This document shows positions 32,840 to 61,904 of a stretch of 64,000 bases of DNA, piece by piece. The position numbers and the translations under genes were made by a program. Numbering within the stretch: position 1 is the stretch's first letter; each line of letters starts with the position of its first letter. The stretch is taken from positions 11,782,501 to 11,846,500 of the forward strand of contig OZ020517.1 in assembly GCA_963971425.1 (NCBI GenBank), written 5' to 3'. A model generated the notes under the pieces. It worked only from the letters and a program-made list of their open reading frames with translations, had not been told where the DNA came from and made no database searches. Origin of the DNA: Bryoerythrophyllum caledonicum. Lineage: Eukaryota; Streptophyta; Bryopsida; Pottiales; Pottiaceae.

Positions 32840-34321
32840 TGTGTCCCGAACTCTGCAGTTCACCAAGAAAGTTCACCCGACCATTAAAAAATCACCTAAC
32901 GACATGCACGGCACTCACAACCTTCAGTCTTTCATAGATTCCCTTCATTAACACGATCGTTCCAGGAAAACAGCAACTCGTTCCTCAAAACAGTCTTCTG
33001 TCGTGAGGAGTGACACAAGAAGATGCAAAACACGTCTCCAGAACAAAGACTTTCGCAAAATCACTCACACATCCTCATTCTAAGCAAACAGCGCTAACAA
33101 CACAGAATCGCGTCTCAAAACGATCAAAAATTACAGACGGAAATGCCTGCAACCTTCGGAACTAGTCCACCTTGACAAACTTACAAACACACGCTAGCTC
33201 CTCCTCAAGAACGCACACAATTTCCTTCTCTGCGACCAAAACTCCCTACAATACTCCGAAGGGAGACAACTCCACAGCAACATATTCAGGCTCCTAACAA
33301 CCTCCACTCGCAAGAAATCACATAACGAGATGCAGAAACGGCGCCAAGACTGTTCACAAACAATTATGCTCCTCCTAAACAAACAACGTCAACAACATAT
33401 CGTCTCTCAACACGGCCAGTCTCTCGAACGTGCAACCTTCACAGACACTCTTCTCGCAACAATTTGCTCCTCCTAATTGCACGATCGCTCCACCAAAAAA
33501 CAACAACGTCACCGCATTCCTCGAATCGACGATCAAGAAAGTACTTACCTCAAAGAAACGGACGCAACTCTACCAGCAAGCTCTCCTCCCGCAAACCTCC
33601 ACACACTAGTATGTGCTCCTCCAAAAGCAAACGACGACAACAATGCGTGACGCCAACAATAAATGGACTATACTTAATTTGTGCATCGAAGTCACCGAAT
33701 GTCGATGATAATGAAGGGAGCCACGTACCCGCCGGGGGTACTCGGGCGATACTGAGGCGGTTATGACTGCATGTAGGATTGGTACACGGGGTGCTACTAG
33801 TCTGGTACTTGGGTGAGGGTGTCTGTATGTGGAATTGGTATACTGTAGGTGTGGCCCAGAAAGCTACGGTCCGTGTGCCAGTCATGGGCCGCGATCGCGC
33901 CGTTGATTGGGCTTCTTGGAAGACCGACTACAGTCGGCAGGACTTGGTTCCCGCGGGGATAGGGGAAGGGCGGCCATGGGTCCCGCGGGTGTGGGAGAAG
34001 GGTGACGTCAGATTGGGTAATATGAGTTAGTTAGTTTTATCTGCTATGGTAATATTGGTCGTGGATGTCTTGGGAAAGCTCGATTATCATAGTCTGGTAA
34101 TATTTTGTAGGAATACTACACTAAAATTGGTATTTAGTGTTGTTCATAGAAAATGACTTGTAAATGCTATAAGTTTTTACTCTTGATGAATATATTTACC
34201 AACTCTGTTTACAATGATCCCCTTCTTTGAATAGTATATATAGTTGTGCAACTAGATGGGGTGATAAAAAAATAGGTAGGGATTAGGGAGGTTAGGGAGG
34301 TTAGGGAGGTTACAGGCAAGT
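32840..34321. other. Upstream region of the RING gene and gene-free sequence
   Basis: 32840-33660 is AC-rich on the plus strand with several similar segments (AACAAACGTCAACAACA-type), probably leader and promoter. A CTGCAG just before the start codon could be a 3' splice site of a 5'UTR intron. 33660-34100 has open frames but no recognised product. A GGTTAGGGA motif repeats three times near 34280-34310. Confidence 0.45.
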
Positions 34322-41330: not shown

Positions 41331-42689
41331 GATTGAAACTTCATTTTAGTATGACAATTTAATCAATGTAAGAATACTTCCCAAAATATTGCAAATTGAC
41401 TGTGGAGCTATCTAGACCGTTGTAATGAAAAGATTGTGGATCAATCAGAAGGACCAGGGGTGTGCTATTGTAAAAAATAAAACAAAACCAGTCGAGGTTC
41501 TCTAACATGTTTATTTGCTAGATTTTTCATGAAGCCAGTTTGGTACTAAAGAATTTCACACTATCGCTGGTGCAAATGTGTCCACCTAAGATGGTTGAAA
41601 GAATATAATTGTAAATGTTTATAATACTATATTTGATTACTGTTAAAAGCATTAAACATGGAAGAGCTTGGTTGTCTCTAAACTTTAGTTAGGAGTAGTT
41701 CTAGCCACCTTTGAGAAGGGAGAGAGAGAGGATGTTGTACCATGATTCTTAGCCATCATCTTCTTCTTTGAACTCATTATACAAGTTTATAGAAATTTAA
41801 GAATGGTTTTTACTACACCAAACAATGAATATAGTGAATGGCATCCATTCTTTGCCACCTCACCACCAAATATCTTCCATTTCTAGTCGCTTGCTACCAT
41901 TTCACCGCCATTGGCCAGCACCTCTCCATACTCCACAATAATGATGTGTCAACAACTTTGAAACATCCCACACTATTATTTGAGGAACATGATTTGATGT
42001 GGATTGAGAATTGAGATGGACTAGTGTAATTTGCATGTACTGGAATTAGTGTAGGTATCACGGCTTTTTTTTGGGCGATTTGGAGCGAAATGGCAAAAAA
42101 GAAGAAGAAAAGTAATATTCCCCCGAAAGTGGGAAAATTATAATTTTAAATCGCCAAAATTGCATTGATGGTTGTCTCCATATCGCCATATTGCTACTAC
42201 AGTAAACACTGAATATAGTGTAGAGGGATTATTGATGTAGATCACCCAACATAGTTTGCTTCTATGGAGTTGGGGCGCACGATGAGAGAAGAGTAGCTCC
42301 GTGAAACCTGGTGAGGAGGGGTTTCTGGGTGTTAGGCACAGATGCAACACACACAACAATGAGGGTTGTTGGGCTCATTGTAAATCCCTGTGTGTATTTC
42401 TTTGCTGCTGAAAGGTATACTGATGGTGTGTAGAGTGTTGAGGGATTGCAAATCTTAGATCTATTGATACAAAGAATGTAGGAGGTTGCAACAAGCTAGT
42501 ACTAGTTTGGGAGAGTAGATCTGTGGCGGGGCTCGGTGTTGCCCCAGATCTAGATCTAGAGGTTGCAGCCCCATATCATCTCTTAGTCATTTAGATCTAG
42601 ATCTAGGATACCATGACACCACAGTAATACCACACCCACCCCCCTCCCCAACTAGGATACTAGCAATATCATGAAGACAATCTACTGCC
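41331..42689. other. Gene-free interval
   Basis: No supportable gene. Near 42530-42610 the hexamer-like AGATCTAGATCT recurs around a GC-rich patch. The LINE probably begins soon after 42660, but I could not fix its 5' end. Confidence 0.45.
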
Positions 42690-43059
42690 TATACGAGACA
42701 GGACTATGTCAATACTCAAGACGACTTCACCAAGGACACCACACAACAAAATCAGATAAGTTCTCTTACAAATCACAGTCTTCAATGTATTATGTTAGAG
42801 AATGCAAGTTAGGCGCCTCTTACAAAATGCATCTTGAAAAGTTTCACGTTAGAAAATTTGAGCTCGAATCACACGCATTAGGGAATGCAGTAGAAGTAAG
42901 GATGATCACTAACCCTCTAGACTCGGAAAAGTACAGCAACCACCTACTTACATCCGCAGGTACAACAACTACCTACTTAGAAACATGACAAGAACCACTA
43001 ACCCTGCAGACAGACAAAGCTTGACGGAGCGATGACCCGGCATTACACATGAAACACAG

Positions 43060-43990
43060 GCGGTACACTTACCAACAACAAGACACGAAAGGACAAACCC
43101 GCTCATACAAATTCCGCAGAAGCAAGGACCCGGCTACAGGCAGGAAACGCACAAGGGATACACACAATCAGTACGCTCGGAGAGAACAAGTACAATCAAG
43201 TCAGACACACAAGACTCAAGCAAGCGAAGAATTGACAACATCCAAGAGGAACACTCCACAGCAGTATGCAAGGAACACAGAGAAGGACTCAAGCCCTGCC
43301 TCAGCCCTACACTACAGCGTAGCGACGTCATATCGTCGACTCAACATATCGCCGGCTCCACAGGACATTGTCTGCTTACACCAGCAAGACAGACAGGGAC
43401 ATGTACACACATACAGAGCCCGAAGGAGCGTGGACACGGGTACAGGCAAGAAATACATGAGGGATAGACACAAAAGGTATGCCCGGAGAGAACAAGCACA
43501 ATCAAGACAGACACACAAGACTCAAGCAAGAGAAGACTCGACAACAATAACGAGGTACACTCCACAACAGTGCACAAGGAGCATACAGGAGCACTCAAGC
43601 CCTACCTCTGCCACAGAAGCCCTCCACCACAACATATCGACGTCACATTGCCGACTCGGCATATTAACGGCTCGCCATAGCACTGCCTGCTCGCACCAGC
43701 AAGATAGGCAAGGAGAGGGACACTCAGACAAAACACGGAGGAGCGAGGACTCGGCAACAGGCTGGAAACACATGAGGGATATATACAAACAGTACGCTCT
43801 GAGAAAACAAATACAATCAAGACAGACACACAAGACTCGAGCAAACGAAGATTCGACAACACTCAAGAGACACACTCTACAACACTGTACAAGGAACATA
43901 CAGGAGCACTCAAAGCCTGCCTTAGCTACAGCAGCTCCCCTCTACAACATATCGACGGCTTGACATATCATCGGCTCCTCACGGCATTAC
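43060..43990 (+). repeat. Three ~310 bp tandem units at the LINE 5' end
   Basis: The landmark CAGACACACAAGACTC recurs at about 43202, 43507 and 43820 (spacing 305-313 bp), with CACCAGCAAGAC/TAG, AAGGAACAC/CATACA and AACATATCG in the same order in each unit. Units run about 43060-43370, 43371-43680 and 43681-43990. An open frame (43049-43963) runs through all three and gives a Gln/Thr/Arg-rich product that repeats KTHKT...QYAR blocks. In some LINEs, tandem 5' monomers act as promoters; here either a promoter or a coding role is possible. Confidence 0.8.
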
Positions 43991-44024
43991 TTGCTCACAC
44001 CAGCTCTCGCCTACTTTTGCCTGC

Positions 44025-44951
44025 TTGACATACAAACCCTACGAAGGGCTGATCGCCGCACACTACCCGCCAACACCAACGTCCATGACCAAGTCGCACC
44101 AAACTCCACCGTGGTCTCAACAGAAGCCCGACGCCCTGCATCAAACAGCGCAAAAGGTAAGTACACTAAACCTCAAAATAATCCCTTGTTGCATCATGAA
44201 TGCAATTCTTATGACCACAGGAGCCTCTGAGATAGCCCAAACAAAAGATCAGCACTCAACCTTCAAGATAGGCCACAGCACCAACAACAAAAAATCGCAA
44301 CATGGGTGCAGGAGCCCCCTCCACAAGAATTCACGAAAAGATACATCCGCGAAACTCATGAGCCCAAGATCTGCAAAGCAAAAGGGATGCCACCAGCGGC
44401 AAAGAAGCAAAAACAAGAGGACTGGAGAACTCACAAAGAAGAGCGTCGCCCTCCAGGTAAGTACTCCTCAACCCTATCGAGATCTCTCCCACACTCTGAC
44501 AAACGTATTCAACTTGTTAACAGATGAAACAGATGCAAGAAACAGAAGAAAGGCGGATCCAAAATATAATGGTATGAAGAAAGGAGAAGAACACATAAGG
44601 AAGATCAAAGGACAAAAACAACAACAACACAACAGCAACATACAGGCCAACGCACAGCAGCAAAGAATCACAAAGCGGCGAAGGCACGTACGCTTAAACC
44701 ATCCAAAACTCACACTAAAATGTTGTGTGTCTTGCCAGGATCTAGTGCCAACAACTAACGAAGTTTTAGAAGGGAAGCGTACCAAACATGTCAGCTACCA
44801 CCTGAAATCACGACCCCAACAGAGCTCCCACCAACGGCTACCAAGAAACCCTAATCGCCACCAAGACAACAATACATCCCAAGTAAAGATCCATCAGCCG
44901 CCACATCGAAATCACAACCGACATATTCCAATCGGACGACTTCCAAGATAG
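44025..44951 (+). CDS. Basic 308-codon frame of the LINE 5' region, with intron-like segments
   Basis: I do not recognise the product. It is rich in Lys, Arg, Gln and His (for example KRRRHVRLNHPKLTLK) and has two cysteines in CCVSC, so a nucleic-acid-binding role could be guessed but is not shown. Two segments inside look like introns: 44157-44220 (AAAAG|GTAAGTAC ... CCACAG) and 44457-44523 (CTCCAG|GTAAGTAC ... GTTAACAG), 64 and 67 nt long, with donors exactly 300 nt apart. If spliced, the reading frame differs from the one given. The start is uncertain: the first codon is ATG, but the frame could join upstream exons. Confidence 0.4.
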   Translation: MTYKPYEGLIAAHYPPTPTSMTKSHQTPPWSQQKPDALHQTAQKVSTLNLKIIPCCIMNAILMTTGASEIAQTKDQHSTFKIGHSTNNKKSQHGCRSPLHKNSRKDTSAKLMSPRSAKQKGCHQRQRSKNKRTGELTKKSVALQVSTPQPYRDLSHTLTNVFNLLTDETDARNRRKADPKYNGMKKGEEHIRKIKGQKQQQHNSNIQANAQQQRITKRRRHVRLNHPKLTLKCCVSCQDLVPTTNEVLEGKRTKHVSYHLKSRPQQSSHQRLPRNPNRHQDNNTSQVKIHQPPHRNHNRHIPIGRLPR

Positions 44952-45040
44952 CTCACAGAAGAAAAACCTAATCGCTCTCAACGACAACAGGAGAATCGTA
45001 CATCACCAACCAGGACATCCAACACACCCCTCCTAAAAAC

Positions 45041-45486
45041 AAGGTACAAAAACCACCCTCACCTTCAAAGGAAATCCTCTTTCGCTTGTGACTCTCGCCG
45101 CACCCCTACTCCCTGCAAGTGCAACAACATTCTCCAGAGGAGCATCCCTGCCCTCAGTCGCTGCAAAGGAGGAGATACCAACACCCCGGAGCAGCCGCCC
45201 CAGCAGGCAACCTGTACGAGATCGGGGACGCAGACGAGCCCTCATACCGATCGCAGGGAACAACAACTGCGAGGACGGACGCAGACACGCCCATATACGC
45301 CAAGCGACCACAAGGGACAACAACCGCAAGGACGAAGGTGACCGCCTCCATTGCCAGCAACCACGGTCAACATTAGTGAAGACTCGGCAGTCCCATCTCC
45401 CATCTCTCTGCCTCTTTTACTGCAAATACTAATTAGATCTGTATGCCCTAACATCGTTACTAACGACGTCTACCTCTCTTTTACAG
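45041..45486 (+). other. Possible intron of the LINE 5' region
   Basis: The 3' end is very strong: a perfect TACTAAC branch sequence (near 45459) followed by a pyrimidine-rich stretch and TTTTACAG ending at 45486. A candidate donor is AACAAG|GTACAA near 45041, which is weak, so the 5' limit is uncertain. Confidence 0.35.
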
Positions 45487-46232
45487 GTACCAACAGGTGG
45501 TGCCATCACACACGAACTAGCCGAAGCACACGACTCTCGAAGCACGACATTGAAGCAGACAGACAAGACACGGAACCCCTACACAGAGTTCGAGTCAAGA
45601 CCCAAACCCCGGAGCCGCAAGAAGTCGGGATAAAAGGAGATCTTGCAGCCAGAACAGACACATCGAACCCAGACACAAGGCCCGGAGCAGCAAGGAGGCG
45701 AAGCCACCGGAGACCCCACAGCACAAGAATTCATGCCCAAGTTCCGGAGCAGCAAGGAGGCAAAGCTAACAGAGACTCCACAGCCCACACAGGAAACCAA
45801 CCCAGGAGGAAGAGGACCAACAAAGCAAAACAACACTCTCCTCAATAGGCTACAGGTTTGAGACCACAACAACCCTTCGTCGCCACAGGTCCGTGGTTAG
45901 CACTCAAATCCGTAGTAAGTGTTACCTTTCTCCCCCCTCATTTTCCAGTCTACTATGAAGACTGTTTAAAATGTAAACATTCAACAATCTGTATAAACTT
46001 TGGCTACTCAAGGTGTGACCCCAATTTGAAGGGCACGCCTCACTACGGTTGGGTTGTTTGGTCTTCTCACACAATTAAAAGTCCTAGAGTCCTGTTTACA
46101 TTGCATGTGGATGTCTTGTCTTCAACAAGCCTACAAAGTAAGTTGTGGGAAGAAGGCAAGCTCCAAAATCGTAAAACTTTAGCAACGTCTTTGAAACAAC
46201 CTACTACCATTTGGTTTTATCTTTGTATCAAC

Positions 46233-47885
46233 ATGTCTTGCTCACAAAATCTTTTTGCGTCATTAAAGGTGGTGGAAATGACTGATTTGGTTGAGGTCCA
46301 GGATGGAGGAAGTCCCCCTCCAAAACGTAGTCATGTTGAAATGGGAAACACGCCAATCCACAAGAAAGTGAAGGCAACAAGCTTGTCTACACTTAAATAT
46401 TGGCTAGGTTTCAAGTCCATGAACACTATTGTAATTAATTCTGGCATGCCTAAAATACCTCTTCTTTCAATAGAAGAATTGATTGAGGGTGGAATGACCA
46501 AAGAGGAGGCAGAACAATGCTTCATAGCAATTCCCTCCTTTCCATATGTACTTCAAGAAGAATGGCCCTCAAAAAGAGCCGATGGAAAAATGGGAAACCA
46601 TTTCAACTTAACCCAACTTCCAAGTGAAGTTGAGGTTGATGAGAGTGGTTTTGCCCTTGATTACCACATCTCCATACATTTTGAGATTGGTAATCAAATA
46701 CTCCCTAGGGATAGCATTCATGGGATGGTCGTGGAACGACTAAATGAAATGAACATTCTCACAGGGGATGTCTTGGGGGAACCAATTGCAATCATGTGCT
46801 ATCACAAAAGCACGACTTGGAGTGGAAGCATTAAAATCCACCTCAAACACCCCGAACTTGATGGACGAAGTCTTTTGCAAGGGAAAAGACCCTTCATCCT
46901 AAAATTGGATGAAGGGATCTCGCACTTGGGAAAAGTATGTAAATCATACGATTCCCTAGCCCTTGCGAATCTTCTCTCCATCAAAATTACAGGTGAAAAC
47001 CTAGTGGAAAAAGAGTGGTTTACTCTTCACCACCAAATTGTGGAGGATAGCTTTGCAAGAGGGTTTGACTTTGAACTAACGGATGTTCAAAACAAGAAAG
47101 AACATGATTTTGCTTGGGTGAAAGCACCATCACCAGATCAGGCGCAGAAAATCAAGGTTCACAAAGTGGCTTTTTTGAATGAAATATTTGAGCCAAGTTT
47201 TGCCAGCAAAGGCAAAATTGGGGAAGAGGAGATTGCAAAAAAGAACGCTTTGATTCTAATTGCAAAAAACCTCAACAAAACCAAAAAAATAGAAATGCTT
47301 GAAGAAGGGATCAAGGGTATCTTTGGAAAGGGAAATGTTGTGGGGATGTACTTCAAGCTTGAGAAAGGGAAACATGTAGGTGTTTACAATGTCCAATGCT
47401 TGAATGCTGCGGTATATAAAAAACATGTGAAAACAACCACCAAAATGTATGGAAAATATGTTGAATTCATTGCGCATCCAAAAAGTCTAGACGAGAGCAA
47501 TGCACCCTCTCAAGAAACATTGATTAAACTAGGGTTTAATGATGTGAATACCGTAGTTGCAAATGCGGTAGTCGCTATGGAAAATGGTCCAAACAAAGGT
47601 CTTAACCAAGAGGACCTAAATAAAGTAGTAGAAGTTGCAGTCAACAAAGGATCAATGAGCACCATTGACGAGATCCGGAAAGAAATGAACATCATGAAGG
47701 GAGAGATCGTACAAGAAGCCCGGCTATACGTAGACACCGTACAAGCAGCAATGACGAGGACACTTAGAGGAGAGATGAAAAGCTTAAGAGCAAACCTCAT
47801 CGAAACAATAATGGACGCAGAAGAGGAGGCCAGCCGAAGACAGCTAAAGGCCATCGAAACCCCATGGACACGTCAAACTAATTAA
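46233..47885 (+). CDS. LINE ORF1 protein with RRM-like region
   Basis: Nucleic-acid-binding chaperone-type protein of a non-LTR element (inferred). The frame is open from 45858 but with a TTG; the first ATG is at 46233 and another at 46278, giving about 550 or 535 residues to TAA at 47885. The middle region is unmatched. Near the C-terminal third an RRM-like segment is visible: a beta strand ALILIAKNLNKTKK, a helix, FGKGNVVGMYFKL and a GVYNVQCLNAAVYKKHV strand. The last ~120 residues are charged and helix-forming (EIRKEMNIMKGEIVQEA ... MDAEEEASRR), possibly a coiled coil for oligomerisation. The frame is undamaged, unlike ORF2. Base composition here is ordinary (20 G in 46261-46320), while flanking LINE DNA is G-poor. 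Confidence 0.7.
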   Translation: MSCSQNLFASLKVVEMTDLVEVQDGGSPPPKRSHVEMGNTPIHKKVKATSLSTLKYWLGFKSMNTIVINSGMPKIPLLSIEELIEGGMTKEEAEQCFIAIPSFPYVLQEEWPSKRADGKMGNHFNLTQLPSEVEVDESGFALDYHISIHFEIGNQILPRDSIHGMVVERLNEMNILTGDVLGEPIAIMCYHKSTTWSGSIKIHLKHPELDGRSLLQGKRPFILKLDEGISHLGKVCKSYDSLALANLLSIKITGENLVEKEWFTLHHQIVEDSFARGFDFELTDVQNKKEHDFAWVKAPSPDQAQKIKVHKVAFLNEIFEPSFASKGKIGEEEIAKKNALILIAKNLNKTKKIEMLEEGIKGIFGKGNVVGMYFKLEKGKHVGVYNVQCLNAAVYKKHVKTTTKMYGKYVEFIAHPKSLDESNAPSQETLIKLGFNDVNTVVANAVVAMENGPNKGLNQEDLNKVVEVAVNKGSMSTIDEIRKEMNIMKGEIVQEARLYVDTVQAAMTRTLRGEMKSLRANLIETIMDAEEEASRRQLKAIETPWTRQTN

Positions 47886-47979
47886 GACCCCCAACGCGAT
47901 AAATACTATAATACTTATAATATATAAAAATATTTACAATACTAAAAAAAACAACAACAAAAATACAAAAATAATAATA

Positions 47980-48010
<31 letters not shown>

Positions 48011-48439
48011 TTTAAAAAAAATAAAAGACAAAACTACCTTAAACAACACATGCTCTTTAAAAGAAATACGAAAAACAACAAAACTCATACTAACAATATA
48101 TTTAAAAATAACAGAAATAATAGCAAAGACAAAGCTCACCTTAAAAACAAAAATAAAAATAAATACAAAAATGTTTGCAAACAAAAGAATACTTTGACAA
48201 AGAAAATTTTACACTAAAAAAAAAATTATAAAAAAAATAAAAATTTAAAGAATAATAAAATTCTAACAAAAATAATAATTATAATAAATAAAAAATATAT
48301 TATTATCATTATTAAAATTAAAACTAAAAATAAAACTAAACAAAAAATCAGAAGTAAATACAACATATCGAAAACAAACAAACTTAACAGAAGAATAACA
48401 TCAACAAAAAATAAGTATACAAGGAAAATAACAAAAAAA
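47886..48439 (+). other. AT-rich spacer between ORF1 and ORF2
   Basis: Almost entirely A and T with (AAT)n at about 47970-48010 and many A runs. No ORF is supportable on either strand, although ORF2's frame stays open for some distance upstream of 48440 without an ATG. Confidence 0.65.
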
Positions 48440-48751
48440 TTGGAAACTAGACTCACCACTCTAAACCAACACTATAAACAAATTACCAAGAGACCAACAG
48501 ATATAAAAACCAAACAAACATACAAACATACTTCTATAAAGGCCACCTTAAACCAACAAACTAAAACCAGATACAAACACTACAATAAATTCCCCAAAAC
48601 CAATCTTTTTACCCCCAAATACACAATAGAGAAACCTATATTTTCACTCAAAAACCTCTCACTCTTAATTACAAACATTAAAAACACACCAAAACCAAAA
48701 TACCAAACATATGAACTAGCCAAAATACATAAAGTCCACACCATACCTTTA

Positions 48752-48802
48752 ATGCTAAAAAGAGACACAGAACCAAACCCACGACATATACCAAATTTAC
48801 TA
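48752..48802 (+). other. Decayed second 2A-like motif in LINE ORF2
   Basis: The encoded MLKRDTEPNPRHIPNLL lines up with LLLSGDIETNPGPMPNIL (49007 on): D-x-E-x-N-P is kept, but the critical Gly-Pro is Arg-His, so skipping is not expected. The DNA just before both motifs reads ACCATAC. A 258 bp internal duplication is likely. Confidence 0.5.
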
Positions 48803-49006
48803 ACAAAACTCCCAACAAACATTAAACAAACCAATACACAATGCATAAAAAATACCCCCAAACGCCATACACATTGGACAAACAAAATCATACACATATA
48901 CACAAATAAAAATATCAAAACCAAAAACAAACACACAAAAAAATACAAAAAAAACACATGCAAACCAATAAAACAACGTTCTAAACCTTTACACTACAAA
49001 ACCATA

Positions 49007-49045
49007 CTATTACTAAGTGGGGATATAGAAACAAACCCGGGACCC
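49007..49045 (+). other. 2A-like ribosome-skipping motif in LINE ORF2
   Basis: The codons give LLLSGDIETNPGP, a full match to the 2A core D-x-E-x-N-P-G-P, preceded by the usual hydrophobic run and Ser-Gly. In known 2A peptides the ribosome skips the bond between the last Gly and Pro, here at 49042/49043, releasing the upstream product. An ATG follows directly at 49046. Skipping would separate a ~201-residue basic leader from the enzyme part. Function is inferred from the motif alone. Confidence 0.8.
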
Positions 49046-52000
49046 ATGCCCAATATACTAAAAAGACACCCACCAACACACAAGAAAAATGCCAAAATGT
49101 ACTTCATACCAAACACCATAAAACTACAACCGGAATACACACACATCGCCAAAACATTCGCACCTTTGTTAAAATCCACACATACACTACACCAATTACA
49201 TAACGTAACATACCCCAATATTGCCCAATACATACAACAAAAAAATACACTCCCACCAACGCACATATTATACTCCCTAATAGTCACCATACACCCAAAC
49301 ATAGTCGAATGTAACCGTATTCTAAGCCTACCAAACCCAAACATAACCACATGGACCAACAATTTATTAAACACCCTGTCAAACTTACAAAATCCACCTG
49401 GAAGACATATCCATATCCCACACCCTCATACAAAATTTCTTGAAGACAATCTAAATATCATAAAATATGGGGACTCAATACACAAAGAATTATACGACTT
49501 CTTACATAGGCAAAACATACCACCTTCAAACCGCACAATAAAACAAAAATTTCCTTACCTCCCTAATGACCTAATTAATGAATCACTAAAATGCTTTGAC
49601 CCCATCCCAGAATATATCCACCCACCCCCCCCACCCCCTCACCTCCCTCCACAAAACCAACACATCAACTCAACCAACAACAATACATATATAATTACAT
49701 GGAATGCCTCATCACTAAACACGGCACTCCCTAGCTTACAAACCTTGGTCACAAATACTAACACACCTCCAGCCATCATAGCTATACAAGAAACAAAACT
49801 ATCGGCCACAAAATCGACAAAATACATACAAAACATATTTCAAGACTATAAACTTATCTTTAGTAACACACATGCATTAACAAGATGCATCCAACAACGC
49901 AGACCATACACACCGCACCGAGGCGGCCTCCTTACACTAATTCATAAAAAATATGCTTTCCCGGGCAACATTATAAAGATTCCTACCCCTATGCACATAT
50001 CTCCTTACCTTCAAATAATTAAAATCGCCAATCAACCACTACAATCATGGTTAATCTTTCACATATATATGCCATCCCACCCTGAAGATATCAGATTTAC
50101 TACAGACATTCAAAACAACATTACATCACAAATAAATAACTACCCGAACCACAACTACATGTTATGTGGAGACTTCAATAGAGATATTGCTTTGATTGGC
50201 CGTCAAAACGGAAACCATAACACTCCCTTACAAACCATAGACTATCAATGGCGCCAATTTATAGAAAACCTAAACTTCACTTACAGAAACACTGATACAC
50301 AATACTCCAGACAAGGTGGATACAATTATAATGACTAAAGCCTAATTGACGGCTTTTATATAAATTCAAACAATAACACACAATACACTTCTACCACAAA
50401 CAAAGACACTATCCTCAACTCATACCACTCTCCTATACAACTCCACATACCAAACAACATACTAATTAATCGTACCCCTATAACCACAAACAAGGATACC
50501 ATACGAGTACTGAACCCCATCCCAAAAGATAACTTAGAAAAATTCTATACAATATTTTTTGAAAAAAACTCTATTCAAATTGACTCTCTAACAAACATCA
50601 TGGAAAATAATAACCAACTCTCTCAAACACAATGGCACGAAACATGCCAATCCCTCGACCTACTCATCAAAGACATCTCAGACACTCTAGAAAAAACTTG
50701 TAAAGCCCTGCCAATACCAAAAATGACAAACCGAACATCACAACAAGGTGGTTATTTACCCCGCAAACTCTCAAAAATATGGAAACAACATCTAGCTACA
50801 TATCATATAATACGGAAAACCATTAGAATAGTAAAAAATAACCCACAATGGCGTGACCACCCCATATGTAATGAATTATTGAACCTACAACACACCCGAA
50901 TTCCTGCCCCACCACCCACAGGCCTACCCCATGATATATGGATAAAAGACATTGCCCTTATCGCAAAAAATGCCAATATACAAGCCCGAAAAATAACTAC
51001 AAAATACTCCCAAGATAATATTAAAAAGGCCATCTCAAAGTATAGACAAATGTTACAATGTACAAAATTAGCCCCAGAAAAATAAATAGAAAAGTGTTTT
51101 AAAAAACCGATTCCCCACCTCTAGATTGCATCATGGACCAAAATAACAACATTCTAACTAGTCCAGAAGACATCTCAAACGAAATATTTAACCAACAGAC
51201 AAAAAATAATAGACCCATGGTACCTACTTGTAACTACCAACCACAACACTTAACAGAATGCACATGTACAATTCGCCAATATCCATGGCACGACCTAGAC
51301 GGCTTTATATTAGAAAAAAGAGGCGAACCTGAAACCCCATTACACACATACTTTAATGAAGCCATATACGATACATGCCTCCATAACCTTGGAAATAACA
51401 AAGCCCCAGGGCCAGACCGAATACCAAATTCAATACTAAAAAACATGCCCCCAAGATTTCACAAACTCCTCTTTCTCTTCTTCACCCACTGTTATAAACA
51501 AAAACAAATACCAAACTCATGGAAAAAAAGCGCAACAATCTTACTATACAAAAAAGGAGACCCCGCAATACTACCGAACCATAGACCAATCGCATTAGCC
51601 AACACAATATATAAACTCTACACTAGTACACTAACCTCTATACTTTCCTCATATGGAGAAAAATTTCGTATCTTACATGATAGTCAAGAAGGATTTAGAG
51701 CAGAAAGAAGCACCGCCAGACAAATACAAACTATAATAGCGGCACTTGAAGACGCACGCTTCACAAATCAAGATATATATATTTTATACGTTGACTTCAA
51801 AAACGCCTTTGGCTCTATTGATCACGCTCGGCTACTAGCTATAATGAAGGACATTGAATATCCAAATGATGCAATCACACTAGTCGGAAACATTTATTCC
51901 CAAACATCTACATACTACATAGGAGAGCACTTTGGAAAGACTAAGCCTATACCCATCCATAGAGGTACTATACAAGGAGATACCCTTAGTCCATACTTAT

Positions 52001-55000
52001 TCATCATATTCCTAGAACTACTACTTAGATGGCTAGAGCGAGGCAATAATGGATACACCTTTGGTACATCGCAAACTACCATAAATTCTGCCGCCTACGC
52101 CGATGACCTAGCTATCATAACCAACACAATAAAACCATTACAAACACAAATTGGCAAAATCGAAAGATACTGTAAATGGACTGGCATGGACGTAGGCGTC
52201 CCAAAATGCGCTGCCACTGGATGTCCAAATAAATCCAAAACAAATCCAACTACCTTTAAAGCTCTAATGCAAGCCTCGAACATCAACTACCGAGGCCAAC
52301 CAATCCCTATATTACACCAAAATGAATCATACACATACCTAGGCATAAACCTTGTTCCCTTTCTAAAATGGAAAATCCAAATACACTCCACGACCTCAAA
52401 ACTTATCAAACAATGTAAAGAATTAACAACATGTCCGGCCACCATGAAACAAAAAATTAAAATGGTTGACACCGTATTACGCCCAGGTATAGCATATAGC
52501 TTCTACGCTGTACCATACTCTATGCCAGCTATCAAAAAACTCGACAAAAAAATAACAGCCATACAAAAAACCATATGTGGCATGCCAAAATGCATGTCCA
52601 ACGCACTAACCCAACTCCCACACAACCTATTCGGGCTCGAAGCTTTCTCCCTAAAAAACGCATACCTCAGATGCATAGGGGAACAATTACAAAACGCCTT
52701 AAATGACATAGGTAGGCTTGGAAAAATATACACCGGGCTAACCCAATACATACTTGCCCAATTTGAAGGGGCTAAAAATATTCCGAGAATTAAAAAAACG
52801 AACTGTGTAAGATCACCAATAACCCGTGCACTATTCCTATTAAAACATGTAGCCAAAACTCACCTAAAAAGCACACTACCAAAGTTCCTCTACAACCACT
52901 CACCATTAGAAATAATATGGCAGCAAGAAACAAGAAACCACAACACACTCAACGACCAACTCTCCCAAAAACTACTACAAAAACTCCTATCAAAAAACAT
53001 CCTCGAACTAAAACAAATCACTCTACCAAACGGCACACACATCATGAATAACGAGGACTTCAAAACCTTTCACTTCACCCCATCCAAACTAATCAAAAGC
53101 GCCCTAAAAGTTGCTAAACAACTTTTTTGCCACCCAACATATCAACCTACAACCACAAGTGATATCCTTTATAACACACAACAATACTCATATACACTCC
53201 GAGACCCATTTATAACCACCAATAACAACACCCTCCCAAGAATTACCATACCACCAATACATCCTCCCACCCCCCACACCAACATTACCCCCGCCCCCCA
53301 ACGTACATCACTAAAGACCCCACCACATACCCTATTAATAACATTATACGACACAAACATATACAACATACAAACACCAACGGAATACAAAATACATATA
53401 TAAAATATCTATGCCAATGGCAGCACAACAATTACATTTTCAATAAATGGCTCCCTCAAAGAAACCTCTTTCCAAGACACGACTGCAGTACCTCCACATA
53501 TAACATAGTAAAACTAAAAGAATATTATCAAAAAATAAAACATAAATTTTTTGCGGAAATCATTCAAGCCCATCACCCCCAAGAACAAATACAAGGCTCA
53601 AGATCCGTAACCCCACCTATAAACATCCCACTACTAAACATCTATACAAAGGAATGTAATCCCGAAAAAGATATCATCACAACCTCAAACACAATTAAAA
53701 TAGAAAACAACCAAGCTCATCTATATGAAGCAAATGGCCGACATTTACACACAATCCCCACTGACAGACTTCAATGGCTATGGAATCAATACAACATGAT
53801 ACTGCAAACCCCTATAAATATTGAACCAATAACCCAATCATTCGAAACTGAACTAATTTGGCTATACCAAAAATATAAATACCGCATCCCAAAACATAAT
53901 CCCCTCAAAAACACACAATACACAATACCCACACCTATCTTAGACACATTAATTGCATCCTTCAACATCGAACAATCATACTTCTCCTCCCCCTCACATG
54001 CCCTACCAAATTAAAAAAAATCTACTCACCCTTTGAAAGAGATAAAGTATTTGGATCATTGGGAAAAGCCTTTGACTATAAATGGACCGGTAAAGGCATA
54101 GCTCACCCCCACAACGAGGAGGAAACCCAACAAGCATTACACTGGGTTAGACTTGCTGCTAAAAATGACCCACATCACTCATCTACACTCATTATCACAC
54201 CGGACAAAAATTGGTACCAAAACGATAACCCACAATCAAGTCCATTTGCAGACTCGCACATCATTGTAATATTTGAAGCAGACTCAATTGCATACGAAGA
54301 ACCTACTATTCCACCTGAGCAAAAAAAACCCAGAATTGAACCCTCTACAATACAAATAATATGCATCCACCACCTCAACCACACCCTAGGCACCCCAGCA
54401 CAATTTGCCGAACTTATCACCATAGCAAAAACCCTCAACATAAACCGGATATACACAAAAATGGCCCCACCAACACCTACACATACACTAGTCAACAAAA
54501 ACAAAAAATGGCCAAAACTAAATTACAACAACAACACACTAGACTACACCCTACCTCTCCCACCCCTCTCGGACTACCAAACTAACACCACACCTAAATT
54601 TGACCCCAAATATAGCTACTTCACAGATGGCTCCTTCAAACCACCAAAACAAATTAATCCACGTAATTGGCGTCGAGAAAAAGCTGGTTACGACATATTT
54701 AATCCTGTGAAAGAAATCAAATTAGCCAAAAGACTACATGGACTACAAAATATTCTTAGAGCAGAACTCATGGCCATCCACAAAACACTAGAAATTATTA
54801 CAACAAAATACAATAATGAACCAGTACACATATTTACAGATTGCATAAACGCACTATACCTACTAAACACCCAAATAACGCATCCCACCCTCCACAATAG
54901 CCACCCTGACAAAATCATATTAAAATCTATGATCCAAATGATACTCAAACGAAGACAAATTACAAACATTCACAAAGTTCGAGCCCACGCCAATATAGGT

Positions 55001-56204
55001 GGTAACGAACAAGCGGATAAACTAGCAAAGGAGGGACGAGAAAATCACACAAAAATGCCAAAGACCCACACAAACACGCCCTCGCCACCCCATACTATTT
55101 CCAAAAAGAAGATTGGCCCTCCAAAGAAGACACCCCTGATAAAGGCCCAATTAGATTCTTGAGTAAATACCTCGAAAAACAAGACCTATATAACAACCTT
55201 GACACAATCTCAAACAATTTTCCCAACATAGAAAAATGGACTAATAATAAAGACATAGATAATGAACTCTCCACAAACTTCTGGAAAAATCCCATCATCA
55301 TTGATTCACAAATAACATGCATTATCAAATTCCGTACCGGACAATACATGGGAAATGCCAGAAAACAACTCTTCTTCGGAATAGAAAGATTCCCATCCAT
55401 AACATGCCCAATATGCACTTCCATGGATCCTGACACATGGCTACATGTCCTACTTAAATGTCAGAACCATCACATACACGCCTTGATCGTTAAAAGACAT
55501 AACAAAGCCGTATGGGAAATCCGCAAATTAATAACCTCCCACCACAAATCGAGATGCTTTATCCTTATGAATGCCGGCACCTTTAACAATAACCCACAAG
55601 AAAACACGGTATCACCATGGCTACTTCCATGTACATGTGTAACTCAAAGATGTCACTGTAATGCTAGACTTAAACCGGATATATTATGCGTTAGAGGCCT
55701 ACCATACAATGACCCCCCACCTAACCACATAAACCAAGATTACACCATCCAATTCATCGAATTCACATATTGTAATGATAGATTCTCCCCGGAAACAATT
55801 GAAAATAAAACCAATAAATACCAACCCCTTATTGATGACATCACTGCCCTCGGGTGGAATGTGGACCCCCTTATTGTAATCACTGCTGGTGCTCGAGCCA
55901 CCACCTTTATACCATCTATAAAAATCCTGGAAGATACCTTCAAAATTCCTATTGACACAATCAAAAATACGTTCAAGAATATTAACATCATTGCCATACA
56001 ACATGCTATGTCCATCCTTCTACATAAATGCAAAATTGAAAACAACCAAACCCTCCCCGTTACACATGATCCCCCATAAAAACTCTTCTCCACTTTACCT
56101 ATAAAACCACCACCAAAACACACCTCCCTCACCACCTTCTCCCCTCCCCTTACCCTCCCCCTCTCTCCCCCCCCTTGGGGCCTATGGATTGGTTCTGAGG
56201 TTTT

Positions 56205-56350
56205 TTTTGGCTACTTGTAACATAGTGTGTACCCTCGAAAAAGGGAAGTAGTTCCAGCTCACTAATTCCCTGTCCGGTGGACTTGGTCTTAGTAGTGGAA
56301 CGAACGGACACTTTATTCACGCCGGCCCCCCTCCAGAGACTGGCGTTCTT
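56205..56350 (+). mobile_element. 5'-truncated SINE copy (same family)
   Basis: Matches 16900-17045: TACTTGTAACATAGTGTGTA, CCCTGTCCGGTGGAC, and ACTTTATTCACGCCGGCCCC followed by a TTCTTCTTCTTCTT tail. It directly follows the LINE's pyrimidine-rich 3' end, so one element may have landed in the tail of the other. Confidence 0.7.
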
Positions 56351-57234
56351 CTTCTTCTTGTAGATCACCCACACTAATTTCCATCAAAGCATGTGCATGC
56401 CAAGTTCTGATTGGGTATTTGTTCTCAAGCAAGTGTGTGTCAATCAACAATTGCATGTAAATTTTCAATTAGTGTAGGAAATTTCAAATAGTCTAGTCTA
56501 CACTATATTCACGGAACGGTGTAGTGAACAGCAGGGACTCCATCCTTTTGCCGAAACGGATGTACAAATCTATGTTTATGGATTCCCCAAAAAAGATATT
56601 TCTGGAGAAAATTTGATTTTGTATGGTTTTCGGGAGAAACTTTGTGTCGCCACATGTGTGGTCTCCAAAAAACTTGTGTCACCACCACTCTAGCTAAAAC
56701 CGTGAAACAAAAAAAAGCCTTGATAGGTATCTTGAAATAGTCTGGTCCTCACTATATGCAGTGTTTGGTGTTCTCGAAATGATAGAAGTTAGTGGCATTA
56801 TGACTTATGGTAGGTATAACTTGTGGGAGGGATGAGTGTAGTAGGGTTTCACCTCAATCCATGCCATCGACCAGGTCAGCCATCTGAACGGTGATGCTAA
56901 TGGATTGTAAGGAATATACTCCAACCAGGAGTTTTGGATTGCAACCCCAGAATAGTCCCTGCTCGATATTCGTGAAGATCAGGCCGTATATCATGAAGAC
57001 CAATAACTCTGAAAGGACAGAGTGTCACCAAAATCACGTACTATGAACCTCCAATTTGTACCCACATCTGCAAACGTTAGCAGGTTAAGACTTCGGCAGC
57101 AAATTTTACCAATCAAGGCTTGTCAAAATTACTATACATGTTAACCAACAAACAACTTAAATGTCTAATCAAACTCACAGCCAAGTTCTTGGAGATATCT
57201 TTATTATGTCATGATAACAGAAATTAAATTGGGC
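56351..57234. other. Gene-free interval with MITE D remnant
   Basis: 56785-56840 resembles one end of MITE family D (ATAACTTGTGGGAGGGATGA). No supportable gene. Confidence 0.5.
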
Positions 57235-57849: not shown

Positions 57850-60800
57850 CTAGTAGAACTTGTAGCCCTTGCCATCAACAACCGTGTTCGCTGCCGCTCT
57901 GATCGTTCCAATGGTCGTAGGCTTAAAATTCAGTGGATCCCAGGCGCTACGCACCTTGGTTACCGTCCACGCCGTGGAAAACAAATGCCCCGCGGTCGAC
58001 AAAGTGGTTCCCGTCACTTCTCCTGCCTCATCACCATATCTACAGCAAAAACCAACGACTACTTCAGCAAACAACCACGCCAAAATTCCCGGTTATCTAT
58101 AAAGTCTTACCGGAAGAGGAAAAGTGGTCAGGTTAGAAAATTTGAAGGTTCAGACTAGACTGATGCTCTCTTTTGAAGAGAAGATCAGCTATGCCAGGGA
58201 GCATTAATCTCATGGTCACTCAAAGCAACATAAAATTCTCTCATAACTGGTCTTCACTAGTTGATGTTCTCTATATCTAAATTTGTACTCCCGAAACCAA
58301 AAGGGAATTATCTATTGTATTTACACATTATTGCGCTACAATATTAGGCCACGAAGAGAGGTTAAAAAACACGTGATAGAGGCTTCAGACTCTATGCAAC
58401 ATGAAGTTATCCCGTAGCAAGTCTTCATTGTTCATGAACTTCCTTAGTCGCTTAGTCCTAGGTTTTGTGCCTACCAGGGAACCGGCTACATTAATCATAG
58501 GATACAATATTAGGCCAAAAAGAGAAGTTAGAGGGAGAGGCTAACTGTAAAAAAACTCGAAGTTCTCCTACAGTTGGTCTTTCACTCTTTGTGAGATTTC
58601 TTTGTCTCGCAGTCCTAGGTTTGTGCTCCCTCGTGCCGAGAGGGAACCAGCTCCACTACAATCTCAGACCAGAAAGAGAGGCAGACTTTACGAATAGCAC
58701 AATTACCTGTGAGCTACAACGTCCTTTGTGAACGCGGAGGCCGTCTTCAGCACATCCTTGCCTGTCTTCTCCACCGCGTCGAACACTTTCGCTGCAAGCA
58801 AGCAATCACCACAGAAACTCATCAAAACGTCGTGCTGAAACCTAAAATTCAGCATGAAAGAAATGGACATGGTCTCTAGTCGACAAGTCAAACCGCAAAT
58901 TTGAGTGCATCTTGTGCACATCAGTAGGGAAGAAAAATGGCAACGTATTAACCCCTTAGAGATTGGCAGCGATTGCGCAAGCTTGTGGTACATAATGTCG
59001 AGATGAAGAGCTCTTTCGTTATCATTGCGCTTGGGGCAATGACGCAGTTAGTGAGGTTACACCGAGACGCGTCAATTGCTGGTTGAAAACTATTTCCAAC
59101 CCCCCTGCGGTGCTCGCAAGAGCGCCCCAGAATTTCTGAAAGGTTGGCCTTAGGCTCCAACCTCCAATTCAATGAATAGAAAACCGGACAGAAAGAATCT
59201 AGTATGCCTCAATCAGGGCACACTGTTGAGTAGATGATCTACTTCAATAAACAACTTATACTGTTCTTCATATAAGTTACATAAACAGGCATGTCCTTCA
59301 TATAAGTTATATAATCAAGCTAGATATAATTGCCGCTACGTTATTACCTCCGCTAACCAAAACGTTCACTGATTGATAACCTTTGCTGACGAGTAACCTC
59401 TGTTGATGTAAAACCTTTGCTACTTTATAACCGCTGATGTGTAACCTCTGCTAAGTCTTAACCCCTACAAAGTTTTTACCAACCCAACCACCGGCGCCAT
59501 ACTCAGCTATAACTTATTCGACGAATGAGTGTATTGACTGTAGTGTACTAAATTTCTAATGCAATTTATCCACCAATGCATGCAAATAAATAATGTACCA
59601 GAAGTGCAATCGAACGACGTTTGATTTGGGCCAAGAAAGAAAAGAAACATACCGAAAGAATCCATGGAAACCATAGCGACTTCGCCAGGCACCAACTGAA
59701 AGATCCTTCTGCCAGCCTCCGATCGCATCAGAGCGCCTGTGAAGAAGCCCGCCACTTTGATGACGCCGTTCAGCATCAGACTCGCCACTTGCTCCGTGGC
59801 TATGGACAAGTTCTTAACCCTGACCAAGCACAGAGCTCTCGCATTTTGTTAGAAAACTTTCTTCGGGAAGGAAATCGGACACGGCTCTCGCACCTTGTTA
59901 GTATTCTCTCTTCCGAGAAGAAATCAGACAATCTAAACAAGCTATGGACAAGCTCATAATCCTAAATAAACACACGGTTCTTCTTATTTTGTTAGCAATC
60001 TTTCTTCCGGGAAGAAATCAAACAACCAAAAAAGTTCTGAACAAGCTCCTAACTCTAAATAAACGCACGGCACTCAGATTTTGCTAGAAATCTTTCTACC
60101 GGAAATAAAAAATCAGACAGCAAGCTAATTAATGAAAACTTCGGAGAAACTGAAATCAGATAACCTAAACAAGTCATGGACATGTTTCTAATTCTAAACA
60201 CACAGCGCTAGCATCTTGTTAGTGATCTCTCTTCCGAAAATCAGACAGCAAGCTAATTGATAAAATCTTCAGAGGAATTGAAGCCACTACCTCTTCAAGT
60301 TGTTGAGAGTCGTCGGGCTAATTGTGCTCGGCTTCCTCGGATTAGGATCGACTTTCTCCTTCACGTACACGCTGCCGTTCTCGAGCTTTGACACAGTTGT
60401 GTCGCGCAACCAGAAGAGGCCTCGGATCAAGTGCCCGGTGCCAGCCGCTAGGGTTTTGGCGACGTCGCTATTGTAGTCGTTTACGTTCGGCGCCATGACC
60501 TCCCAGAACTCCGAGCCTTCCTTCTGCTTCGTGACCTCCAGTTTGTTAATGGTGACGAGGTTTCGCTGCGCGTCCATCGGAGTATAAACCATGCGGCTAT
60601 GGCCGTAAGGTTCCGCGCGGACCAGCTGCGGATTCGAGAATTCGCTGTATTGGTTTAGCACCGCGTCGAGCTCGCGCAGGTGCTCCTCCTGTCCTAGCGC
60701 GGGGAACGTCACTCCATAGCTCAGGACGCTATGGCACCGCGCGGTGTCCGTGTCCATTTCATCGACAGGACGCGGAACGCGGATTGTGAAGAAGTAATGG

Positions 60801-61417
60801 CTGGAGTCCAGCTTCACGGCGGGCTCGTCTTTCGTCAGCGGCCACCGCAAATTGTCTCCGACTCGCACGAACGTGACGATCCCGTTCCCAGCCTCCTCAA
60901 TCAGCACCACCTCAAACTCGCCTTCTCCGAGCAGCGGGCTCTCCTGGTCGTCAACCAGGTGCACCTGCGCGCCGCGCAGGCTCACCAGCACCTCCTCCGT
61001 CGCCTCGGTCACCTCCGCATCCGCTGCATACGACGGCTCCACCTCCGCGCTCGCCATGCTGTAATTGTAAGTGCGCAACCGATTCTCCGACTCGCCGCCA
61101 TAGCCAAACTCGTTGTACCGCGACGGCTCCTCCACATACCGGCTCAGCTGCTCCGCGTAAGTGCTGCACCGGTCGTACGCCGGCGCGAACGCCGCCGGCT
61201 CATACTCCCGGAATCGATCAAACGGCGGAGGCGAGTCCGAGCCCGCCTCCGAATTGGAGCTCCGCGGCGCCTCGTCGTCCCGGCGCTCATACTCCGCCGT
61301 GACGGGCATTGGGAAGCTCTCGTATCCTGCTGCCGAATTGCCATACTCGTAACCATGTCCATGGCTGTACCTGTCGCGATTATCCTCGAACAGGTTGCTG
61401 CCGCTGAACCAGTCCAT
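57850..61417 (-). CDS. Senescence/dehydration-associated protein (ERD7 type)
   Basis: Plant lipid-droplet or membrane-associated stress protein with a senescence domain. Known relatives respond to drought, cold and senescence and bind membrane lipids. Four exons on the minus strand keep phase: 61417-60291, 59819-59653, 58791-58707 and 58039-57850, about 522 residues. Residues 1-~160 are Tyr/Glu/Ser-rich and probably disordered (MDWFSGSNLFEDNRDRYSHG). Residues ~160-235 form the family's beta-rich N-terminal domain (VLVSLRGAQVHLV ... LRWPLTKDEPAVKLDSSHYF). From ~370 the helical senescence domain follows: ATEQVASLMLNGVIKVAGFF, RSEAGRRIFQLVPGEVAMVS, KVFDAVEKTGKDVLKTASAF and EVTGTTLSTAGHLFSTAWTV. 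The last exon ends at TAG; a longer C-terminus is discussed in the entry for 57235-57793. Intron 2 (58792-59652) holds a MITE D-like remnant. Confidence 0.93.
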
Positions 61418-61904
61418 CGCAGCTCCAAAAACGCCAACAATTCACATACAATCACAACGAGCGAACACGGTACTCCATGAGCGAGGAGATGAAGTAGCGA
61501 TCCCTATCCACCTGATGGGAAGCGCTCGAAGCGGCGCCAAATGGCGATCGGCGACTGTTGATGGCATCGACACAACCTTTTCACCAGTATTATTGTCGAA
61601 GCACAGATTCCACGACACGGCACTTATTCCGCCGCGAGCTAGCGGCCGAGATAGCGAGCGCTGTAAAGGGTGGCCGTAAATTTGACGAGTTCAAGGGGGA
61701 GAGGCCTGCCAAACTTGGTGCCCGGGATCGGGTTCCAGGTGGTGGTGCATCCCGACGCGCGGACCAAGTCATTTCGTCGCGTCTGCTCCCTTTCAATAAT
61801 GACCGTAGAACCCCCCACAACAGTTCGTGCACTCCCTTTTCAATTTTGGGCGGTTCCTATGGTGTCTATTTTGCTCATGTTTTTGACATTTTTCTACCAA
61901 GATG
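61418..61904. promoter_or_regulatory. Probable promoter and leader of the senescence gene
   Basis: The 490 bp before the start codon are GC-richer than the sequence beyond and end at repeat C copy 3. Open frames here on both strands look like chance. I cannot place a TATA box with confidence. Confidence 0.35.

Follow-up and report, generated by a model that had tools for sequence, protein, structure and literature searches.

A stretch of 64,000 nucleotides of contig OZ020517.1, referred to below as the window, carries a non-long terminal repeat (non-LTR) retrotransposon of about 14.1 kb at about 42,280-56,359. Its second open reading frame (ORF2) very probably has a dual-nuclease architecture, in which an apurinic/apyrimidinic (AP) endonuclease (APE) and a restriction-like endonuclease (RLE) are parts of the same ORF2. 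The order of the parts in ORF2 is a 2A peptide, the APE, a reverse transcriptase (RT), a PCIF1-like domain, an RNase H, a CCHC knuckle and the RLE. We are fairly confident that the element is a decayed copy from a large, recently active non-LTR family that works like Dualen/RandI; membership of that clade is unproven. The part order, the copies, ends, tail and target-site duplications are shown, as is the selection acting on the portion that starts at the PCIF1-like domain and extends through the RLE.

An earlier note on this DNA had proposed a long interspersed nuclear element (LINE) with an APE and an R2-type nuclease, similar to Dualen/RandI. The proposal is supported by the present analysis, with the R2-type nuclease to be regarded as probable and not proven on the strength of an R2-like layout, an alignment of 93 columns and purifying selection. 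All the APE motifs named in the note, and likewise the RT, the RNase H, the CCHC knuckle and the motifs KPDI, FIEFTY and KTNKY, were recovered where it had placed them. The interval it gave, 48,440-56,079, corresponds to the ORF2 part and is too short for the element, which also includes ORF1 and extends from a 5' region beginning near 42,280 to a 3' end near 56,359. The note also overlooked the frame breaks and the true ends and, among the parts, ORF1, the 2A peptide and the PCIF1-like domain.

The decay of the window copy is seen in an in-frame TAA (50,336-50,338) inside the APE and in four frame changes, one at about 51,086-51,103 and the others within 53,226-53,403, 53,900-54,014 and 55,021-55,162. 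All features of the element described below lie on the forward (+) strand. There is a strong strand bias, with A and C abundant on the coding strand: over window positions 48001-56000 the GC skew ranges from -0.59 to -0.37 and the AT skew from +0.28 to +0.42.

The APE and the probable RLE of ORF2

The APE domain is located at 49,685-50,440 and is interrupted by the TAA at 50,336. It matches the Pfam family Exo_endo_phos at 2.6e-5, with 24.6 bits against a cut-off of 24.5 (1.1e-5 in a second run), and ExoIII chains of the Protein Data Bank (PDB) match its first 41 residues with an E of 0.002. The motifs TWNASS, IQETK and GDFNRD are found within 48,440-50,338, and SLIDGF and SYHSP follow past the TAA in the same frame. 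The last APE motif is usually SDH. Two features of this domain weigh against a dual-nuclease reading: the last motif of the window copy is SYH where SDH is usual, and the APE is known from the window copy alone.

Together with the stop codon and a Pfam score that is barely over the cut-off, the SYH motif would fit an element in which both nuclease regions are present and one is working, with either the RLE alone cutting as in R2 next to a vestigial APE, or the reverse. The absence of a consensus at the insertion junctions (see below) would suit the latter, an APE-led element with a vestigial RLE. We consider this explanation unlikely, though worth keeping in mind, because the RLE and the knuckle are selected as strongly as the RNase H, and because the genome holds frames that are long enough to include an APE. 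The copy searches cover the host genome of 437 Mb, in which the window lies, and frames were counted by eye over the open reading frames of the best 148 of 8,823 loose candidate places. In 30 of these 148 scored places the open frame reaches or exceeds 2,355 codons, which is the length from the 2A peptide to the end of ORF2.

The RT is located at 51,370-52,611 (RVT_1, 6.3e-28). When compared with the PDB, it scored 119 bits with the R2 chains 9nl2, 9nl3 and 9dou (the 9nl2 and R2Tg types), 75-76 bits with L1 and 68 bits with R2Bm. These scores are compatible with an intermediate position between the R2-like and L1-like clades, without showing one; the RT is nearer to R2 of the 9nl2 and R2Tg types than to L1, which favours our reading, and that R2Bm scores below human L1 (68 vs 75 bits) counts against it. 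Among 150 RT matches in the genome, the eight that were fetched look, on our own reading, like Gypsy elements. The RNase H follows at 54,614-55,037 (PF00075, 2.6e-14), with its catalytic residues D-E-D-H-D kept in 25, 27, 23, 27 and 28 of 30 copies.

The case for the second nuclease is built on the C-terminal segment of ORF2. A CCHC knuckle, followed by KRHNK as in R2, was recognized at 55,405-55,461 by its motif and by alignment to R2, and the RLE, with KPD, E and KxNKY, at 55,627-55,940 by its motifs, the R2 alignment and the ratio of nonsynonymous to synonymous substitution rates (dN/dS). CPICx9HVLLKC, KRHNK, KPDI, FIEFTY and KTNKY are all found within 55,159-56,079. Three R2 chains in the PDB have in common with the window H[IV]xxxC, RHN, KPD[IL] and a hydrophobic-acid-hydrophobic triplet, and the two chains that reach far enough also share KxxKY. 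When patterns derived from R2 were applied to 2,000,000 shuffled sequences, the two halves were matched by 176 and 5 of them and both halves in order by none, the expectation under independence being 2e-10; the patterns were written after both sequences had been seen, so this figure should be taken as a guide and not as a clean test. A hidden Markov model (HMM) comparison of the C-terminus with R2, which the earlier note had suggested, gave a colinear alignment by hhalign between a nine-member family profile and the three R2 chains. It spans the knuckle through NKY in 93 columns, at 29% identity and with a pairwise E of 0.0057.

Selection points in the same direction. The RLE residues K, P, D, E, K, K and Y are kept in 28, 28, 29, 26, 28, 29 and 29 of 30 copies, and the Cys and His residues of the knuckle in 28-30 of 30. 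The dN/dS pooled over pairs of the 30 copies is 0.146 for the RNase H, 0.121 for the knuckle and 0.158 for the RLE core. The linker has a value of 0.152 and the tail one of 0.206, and the 504 residues that precede the RNase H reach 0.253. Dead copies raise the dN/dS, and the true constraint is thus probably stronger than these values indicate.

The distance from PD to E, which the earlier note had counted as 26 residues and had taken as a reason for doubt, is indeed 26, compared with 12 in R2Bm and R2Tg, and the distance from RHN to KPD is 56 compared with 30-31. Since the anchors on both sides are present, including RHN and KxNKY, the long gap is best explained by the insertion of a loop. The spacing is identical in the copies that match the pattern, and with the flanking R2 anchors in place the gap was set aside as an argument against a nuclease.

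It should be pointed out that several results weigh against an R2-type RLE. The hhalign probability of the 93-column alignment is only 6.5%, and with R2Bm alone it falls to 0.25%, with just the KxNKY end aligned. An HMM of the three R2 knuckle-RLE chains fails to separate the family from shuffled sequences, 23 of 20,000 of which outscore the window protein and 15 of which outscore copy L028; the same HMM did not find the diverged relative described below, which itself has KTD instead of KPD. A phmmer search of the PDB with the C-terminus returned two chance matches at E 0.6, the corresponding profile search returned none, and no R2 chain was among the results. No Pfam family was matched by the C-terminal segment, and AlphaFold models from single sequences reached a mean pLDDT of only 35.5 and 41.2, showing just a strand-strand-helix order. 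Taken by themselves, these weak or failed runs would suit a CCHC domain that is unrelated to the PD-(D/E)xK nucleases, with the KPD...E...KY series a coincidence and the element a single-endonuclease LINE. We hold this to be quite improbable in view of the shuffling result, the colinear alignment from the knuckle to NKY and the conservation of the catalytic letters across copies. The searches also have a yardstick: a PDB search with just the RLE of R2Bm missed both other R2 types at E up to 10, and both were found when the knuckle was included. Sequence search is therefore underpowered for the RLE domain. On balance of sequence evidence, the C-terminal segment is very probably an R2-type RLE, although not a secure family hit.

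Two observations on related sequences may be added. A relative of the module is found at L031:174-881 (+), beside another copy of the element; it is 57% identical to the C-terminus of the window copy and keeps the E, the K and NKY, which indicates that the genome holds two lineages of the module or more. The R2Bm knuckle-RLE query also matched, with an E of 0.042, the archaeal protein 2eo0, which is named as a Holliday-junction resolving enzyme (PMC3636483).

The 2A peptide and the PCIF1-like domain

ORF1 occupies 45,849-47,885, where it ends in a stop; it has matches elsewhere in the genome and shows protein-level constraint from about 46,300. In the stretch 46,500-47,882, the ratio of nonsynonymous to synonymous polymorphism (pN/pS) is 0.18 and 0.16 in frame, compared with 1.1-1.6 in the other frames. 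An A-rich spacer follows at 47,886-49,006. The ORF2 frame is open from 48,218 in the window, and the spacer has no clear codon signal: pN/pS in the ORF2 frame is 0.63, 0.66 and 0.82 in three stretches and 0.68-1.21 in the other frames, and the profile of variable sites is flat.

The constrained part of ORF2 begins with a 2A (StopGo) peptide, LLLSGDIETNPGP, at 49,007-49,045. The motif D(V/I)ExNPGP is matched in the window and in most copies; of 10 copies, seven have an exact NPGP, the window's among them, and the other three have NPGS, NPRP and NPGL. Just past the 2A, at 49,013-49,385, the in-frame pN/pS is 0.216, compared with 1.3 and 1.9 in the other frames. The position of the 2A thus marks the onset of protein-level constraint, and the ribosome skipping itself is predicted. 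Upstream of it, at 48749-48787, there is a 2A-like stretch, LMLKRDTEPNPRH, without NPGP, which reads DIEPNP in copies L040 and L041; this stretch may be a degenerate duplicate of the 2A.

The same motif, D(V/I)ExNPGP, is given for 2A peptides in general (PMC12846837, PMC4981915), whose described occurrences include trypanosome and sea urchin LINEs as well as the N-termini of proteins (PMC4981915). The natural use of StopGo by plant viruses is described as being without evidence, though StopGo works in plants (PMC12846837). In the available portions of the literature on 2A-like sequences and non-LTR elements, no mention of a plant LINE with a 2A was found.

A single frame running from ORF1 through the 2A to ORF2 was considered as a general rule and was rejected, as the ORF1 stop is found at 47,880-47,885 in 10 of the 10 copies read, window included. 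The same stop, with translation having to reach the 2A by some other route, counts against our reading.

The PCIF1-like domain is situated between the RT and the RNase H, at 53,805-54,260; it is frameshifted in the window copy, and its limits were transferred from copy L028. In L028 the match to PF12237 has an E of 5.3e-13 and 49.4 bits against a cut-off of 31.1 (47.9 bits in another run). Three of the five members of a family profile, A4, match PF12237, and the other two are without the N-terminal half; the window's own frameshifted half reaches 0.035. When the PDB was searched with a single copy, PCIF1 (6irx) was found with an E of 0.0018 and a second PCIF1 match with 0.011, while with the five-member profile A4, PCIF1 came at 0.41, behind a cysteine desulfurase at 0.33. 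The SSPxxC and FGSxG blocks align with PCIF1. NPPF is the catalytic motif of the PCIF1 family, and in both PCIF1 chains compared, ANPPF aligns with AHPHN of the element. The HPHN is itself conserved, with H in 29, P in 27, H in 28 and N in 29 of 30 rows, one row being unreadable, and the dN/dS of the PCIF1-like core is 0.144.

The replacement of ANPPF by AHPHN in nearly all copies makes cap methylation unlikely. The domain is thus maintained and its methyltransferase activity has probably been lost, and we would suggest that it binds RNA or the RNA cap. Among the top-listed PCIF1 literature, as represented by titles and the beginnings of abstracts, there was no mention of such a domain in a LINE, which does not by itself show it to be unreported.

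Ends, copies and surroundings of the element

The window copy is flanked by a target-site duplication. Its 5' copy, TGTAGATCACCCA, at 42,236-42,248 is identical in 13 of 13 bases to the 3' copy at 56,359-56,371, the first T being possibly common to the tail, and 31 bases separate the 5' copy from the conserved motif at the 5' end of the element. Strings of 11-13 bases common to both ends were also found in 4 of 4 other copies tested, and in 2 of these 4 the duplication is set apart from the 5' end motif by extra bases, which is also the case in the window. The 5' region extends over 42,280-45,848; it has the 5' end motif GATGAGAGAAGAGTAGCTCCGTGAAACCTGGTGAGGAG and, at 43,121-43,957, tandem units of 315 bp as detected by TRF. 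A sharp 5' boundary and a similar motif are common to 8 of 10 upstream regions fetched from other copies, of which the remaining two are 5'-truncated in one case and run into N in the other, and the window counterpart of this motif lies near 42,280. In the window, the initial 1.7 kb of the 5' region, including the 315-bp units, has hardly any match to the 5' regions of most of these copies.

At the other end, comparison of copies defined a 3' untranslated region (UTR) at 56,080-56,359 that ends in (TTC)n of 2-9 units. The (TTC)n run is present in all 30 copies, window included, and in 29 of 29 other fetched 3' ends the homology ends at window positions 56,352-56,364. The 30 3' junctions have no clear target consensus, apart from a slight preference for G as the first base (14 of 30). 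As for covariation in the 3' UTR, a double change was seen in 1 of 35 pairs, and no claim is made from it. The downstream flank at 56359-56525 recurs in the fetched loci L016 (96%) and L023 (81%) and is therefore itself a repeat.

The family is well represented in the genome. A DNA search with the last 1.7 kb of the element gave at least 59 matches from 40 scored candidates, and a query with ORF1 (45,858-47,885) gave at least 40, some of which are pieces of one copy. Two of the copies, L027 and L028, share 99.7% identity across 2,976 bases, which means that the family moved recently. Scans of viral contigs for relatives gave 2 pattern matches with an RT profile and 40 with an RLE profile, none of which was confirmed.

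Outside the window, there are six places where ORF1 occurs together with the C-terminal part at the right spacing and orientation, and on this ground ORF1 is considered part of the element. The same observation bears on the idea of a LINE-in-LINE chimaera, in which the two nucleases would not belong to one protein. The splitting of the window copy into several frames would be in keeping with it, yet the recurrence in six other places and the long open frames in 30 of the 148 scored places make it extremely improbable. For the portion from the RNase H to the RLE the chimaera is refuted, since in L028 this portion lies in a single frame of 992 codons.

A gene for U4 spliceosomal RNA is located at 59021-59161 (+), 2.7 kb downstream of the element (105 bits). 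Another gene, at 60,290-61,441, has a Senescence domain (PF06911), which is a hint at a plant host and nothing beyond that. On the reverse strand, a gene at 31577-32872 (-) encodes a single protein that combines a ubiquitin domain with a C-terminal RING finger.

Proposed mechanism and comparison with known systems

In the mechanism that we propose, ORF2 would be translated separately from ORF1, through reinitiation or from a start within the A-rich spacer. The 2A peptide would release the ORF2 protein from its leader. One nuclease would then nick the first strand; the APE is favoured for this step, because the insertion sites have no common sequence. Target-primed reverse transcription would make use of the (TTC)n end of the RNA. 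The CCHC-RLE module, C-terminal as in R2, would cut the second strand or resolve a branched intermediate. This division of labour between the two nucleases is offered tentatively, at somewhat less than an even chance.

A bolder version would have an active lineage of dual-nuclease LINEs in plants, in some copies of which ORF1 and ORF2 share one reading frame that exceeds 3,300 codons and is divided by a natural 2A. The captured, dead cap-methyltransferase fold would bind the capped 5' end of the element's own RNA and so favour full-length copies, and the two nucleases would cut the two strands. Open frames of 3,365-3,764 codons are found in 10 of the 148 scored places, a length that would fit ORF1 and ORF2 together. 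The single frame is made less probable by the ORF1 stop in all ten copies read, and we regard this version as a long shot.

Dualen/RandI was reportedly described by Kojima and Fujiwara in 2005, and a cysteine protease is said to be among the parts of Dualen, though it may not define the clade; no cysteine protease was found in the Pfam matches of ORF1, of the ORF2 pieces of the window or of L028. Dualen is the described group with both nucleases (PMC4640811, PMC3636483), and it has been used to argue that APE elements arose by the replacement of an RLE with an APE (PMC4640811). RandI is listed under green algae with 8 families, of which 8 have non-A 3' repeats, (ATT)n or (CTATTT)n (PMC3747384, Table 3). 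Dualen is further known from relatives of Chlamydomonas (PMC8226300), and there are LINE/Dualen annotations in cryptophytes (PMC12747079). The element described here resembles Dualen/RandI in having an APE and an RLE together with the RT, an RNase H after the RT and a non-A simple repeat at the 3' end. It differs in its 2A peptide, PCIF1-like domain, long A-rich spacer, 14-kb length and (TTC)n tail, and in its host, which is probably a plant. The earlier note's idea of a land-plant-type relative is plausible, though unproven. No land-plant Dualen/RandI is named in the available portions of the literature on these elements, the search having left most subscription journals and Repbase outside, and Dualen is not mentioned in the available text of the bryophyte literature matches listed; we do not claim the element as the first of its kind in plants. 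With another dual-nuclease family that is abundant and recently active, the view of RLE-to-APE replacement would become testable, by asking which of the two enzymes makes the first nick and which the second cut. The combination of two unrelated nucleases with two unexpected parts, a 2A peptide and a PCIF1-like insert, could help to explain how one cutting enzyme is swapped for another.

To our knowledge, R2 has neither an APE nor an RNase H. The R2 elements (R2Bm and R2Tg; PDB 8gh6, 9dou, 9nl2 and 9nl3) share with the element the RT, CCHC, RHN, KPD, an acidic residue and KxxKY, in the same order; they differ in the two spacings discussed above and in being site-specific, whereas the element has no clear consensus at its 30 junctions. 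The PCIF1/CAPAM cap adenosine methyltransferases (6irx, 6irv) are alike in the PF12237 match above cut-off and in the SSPxxC and FGSxG blocks, and different in that their ANPPF is AHPHN in the element. As for the APE-type LINEs of trypanosomes and sea urchin that bear a 2A, we know of no RLE in them. They do have, like the element, a 2A peptide in a LINE with an AP endonuclease (PMC4981915), and it is the second nuclease that sets the element apart from them.

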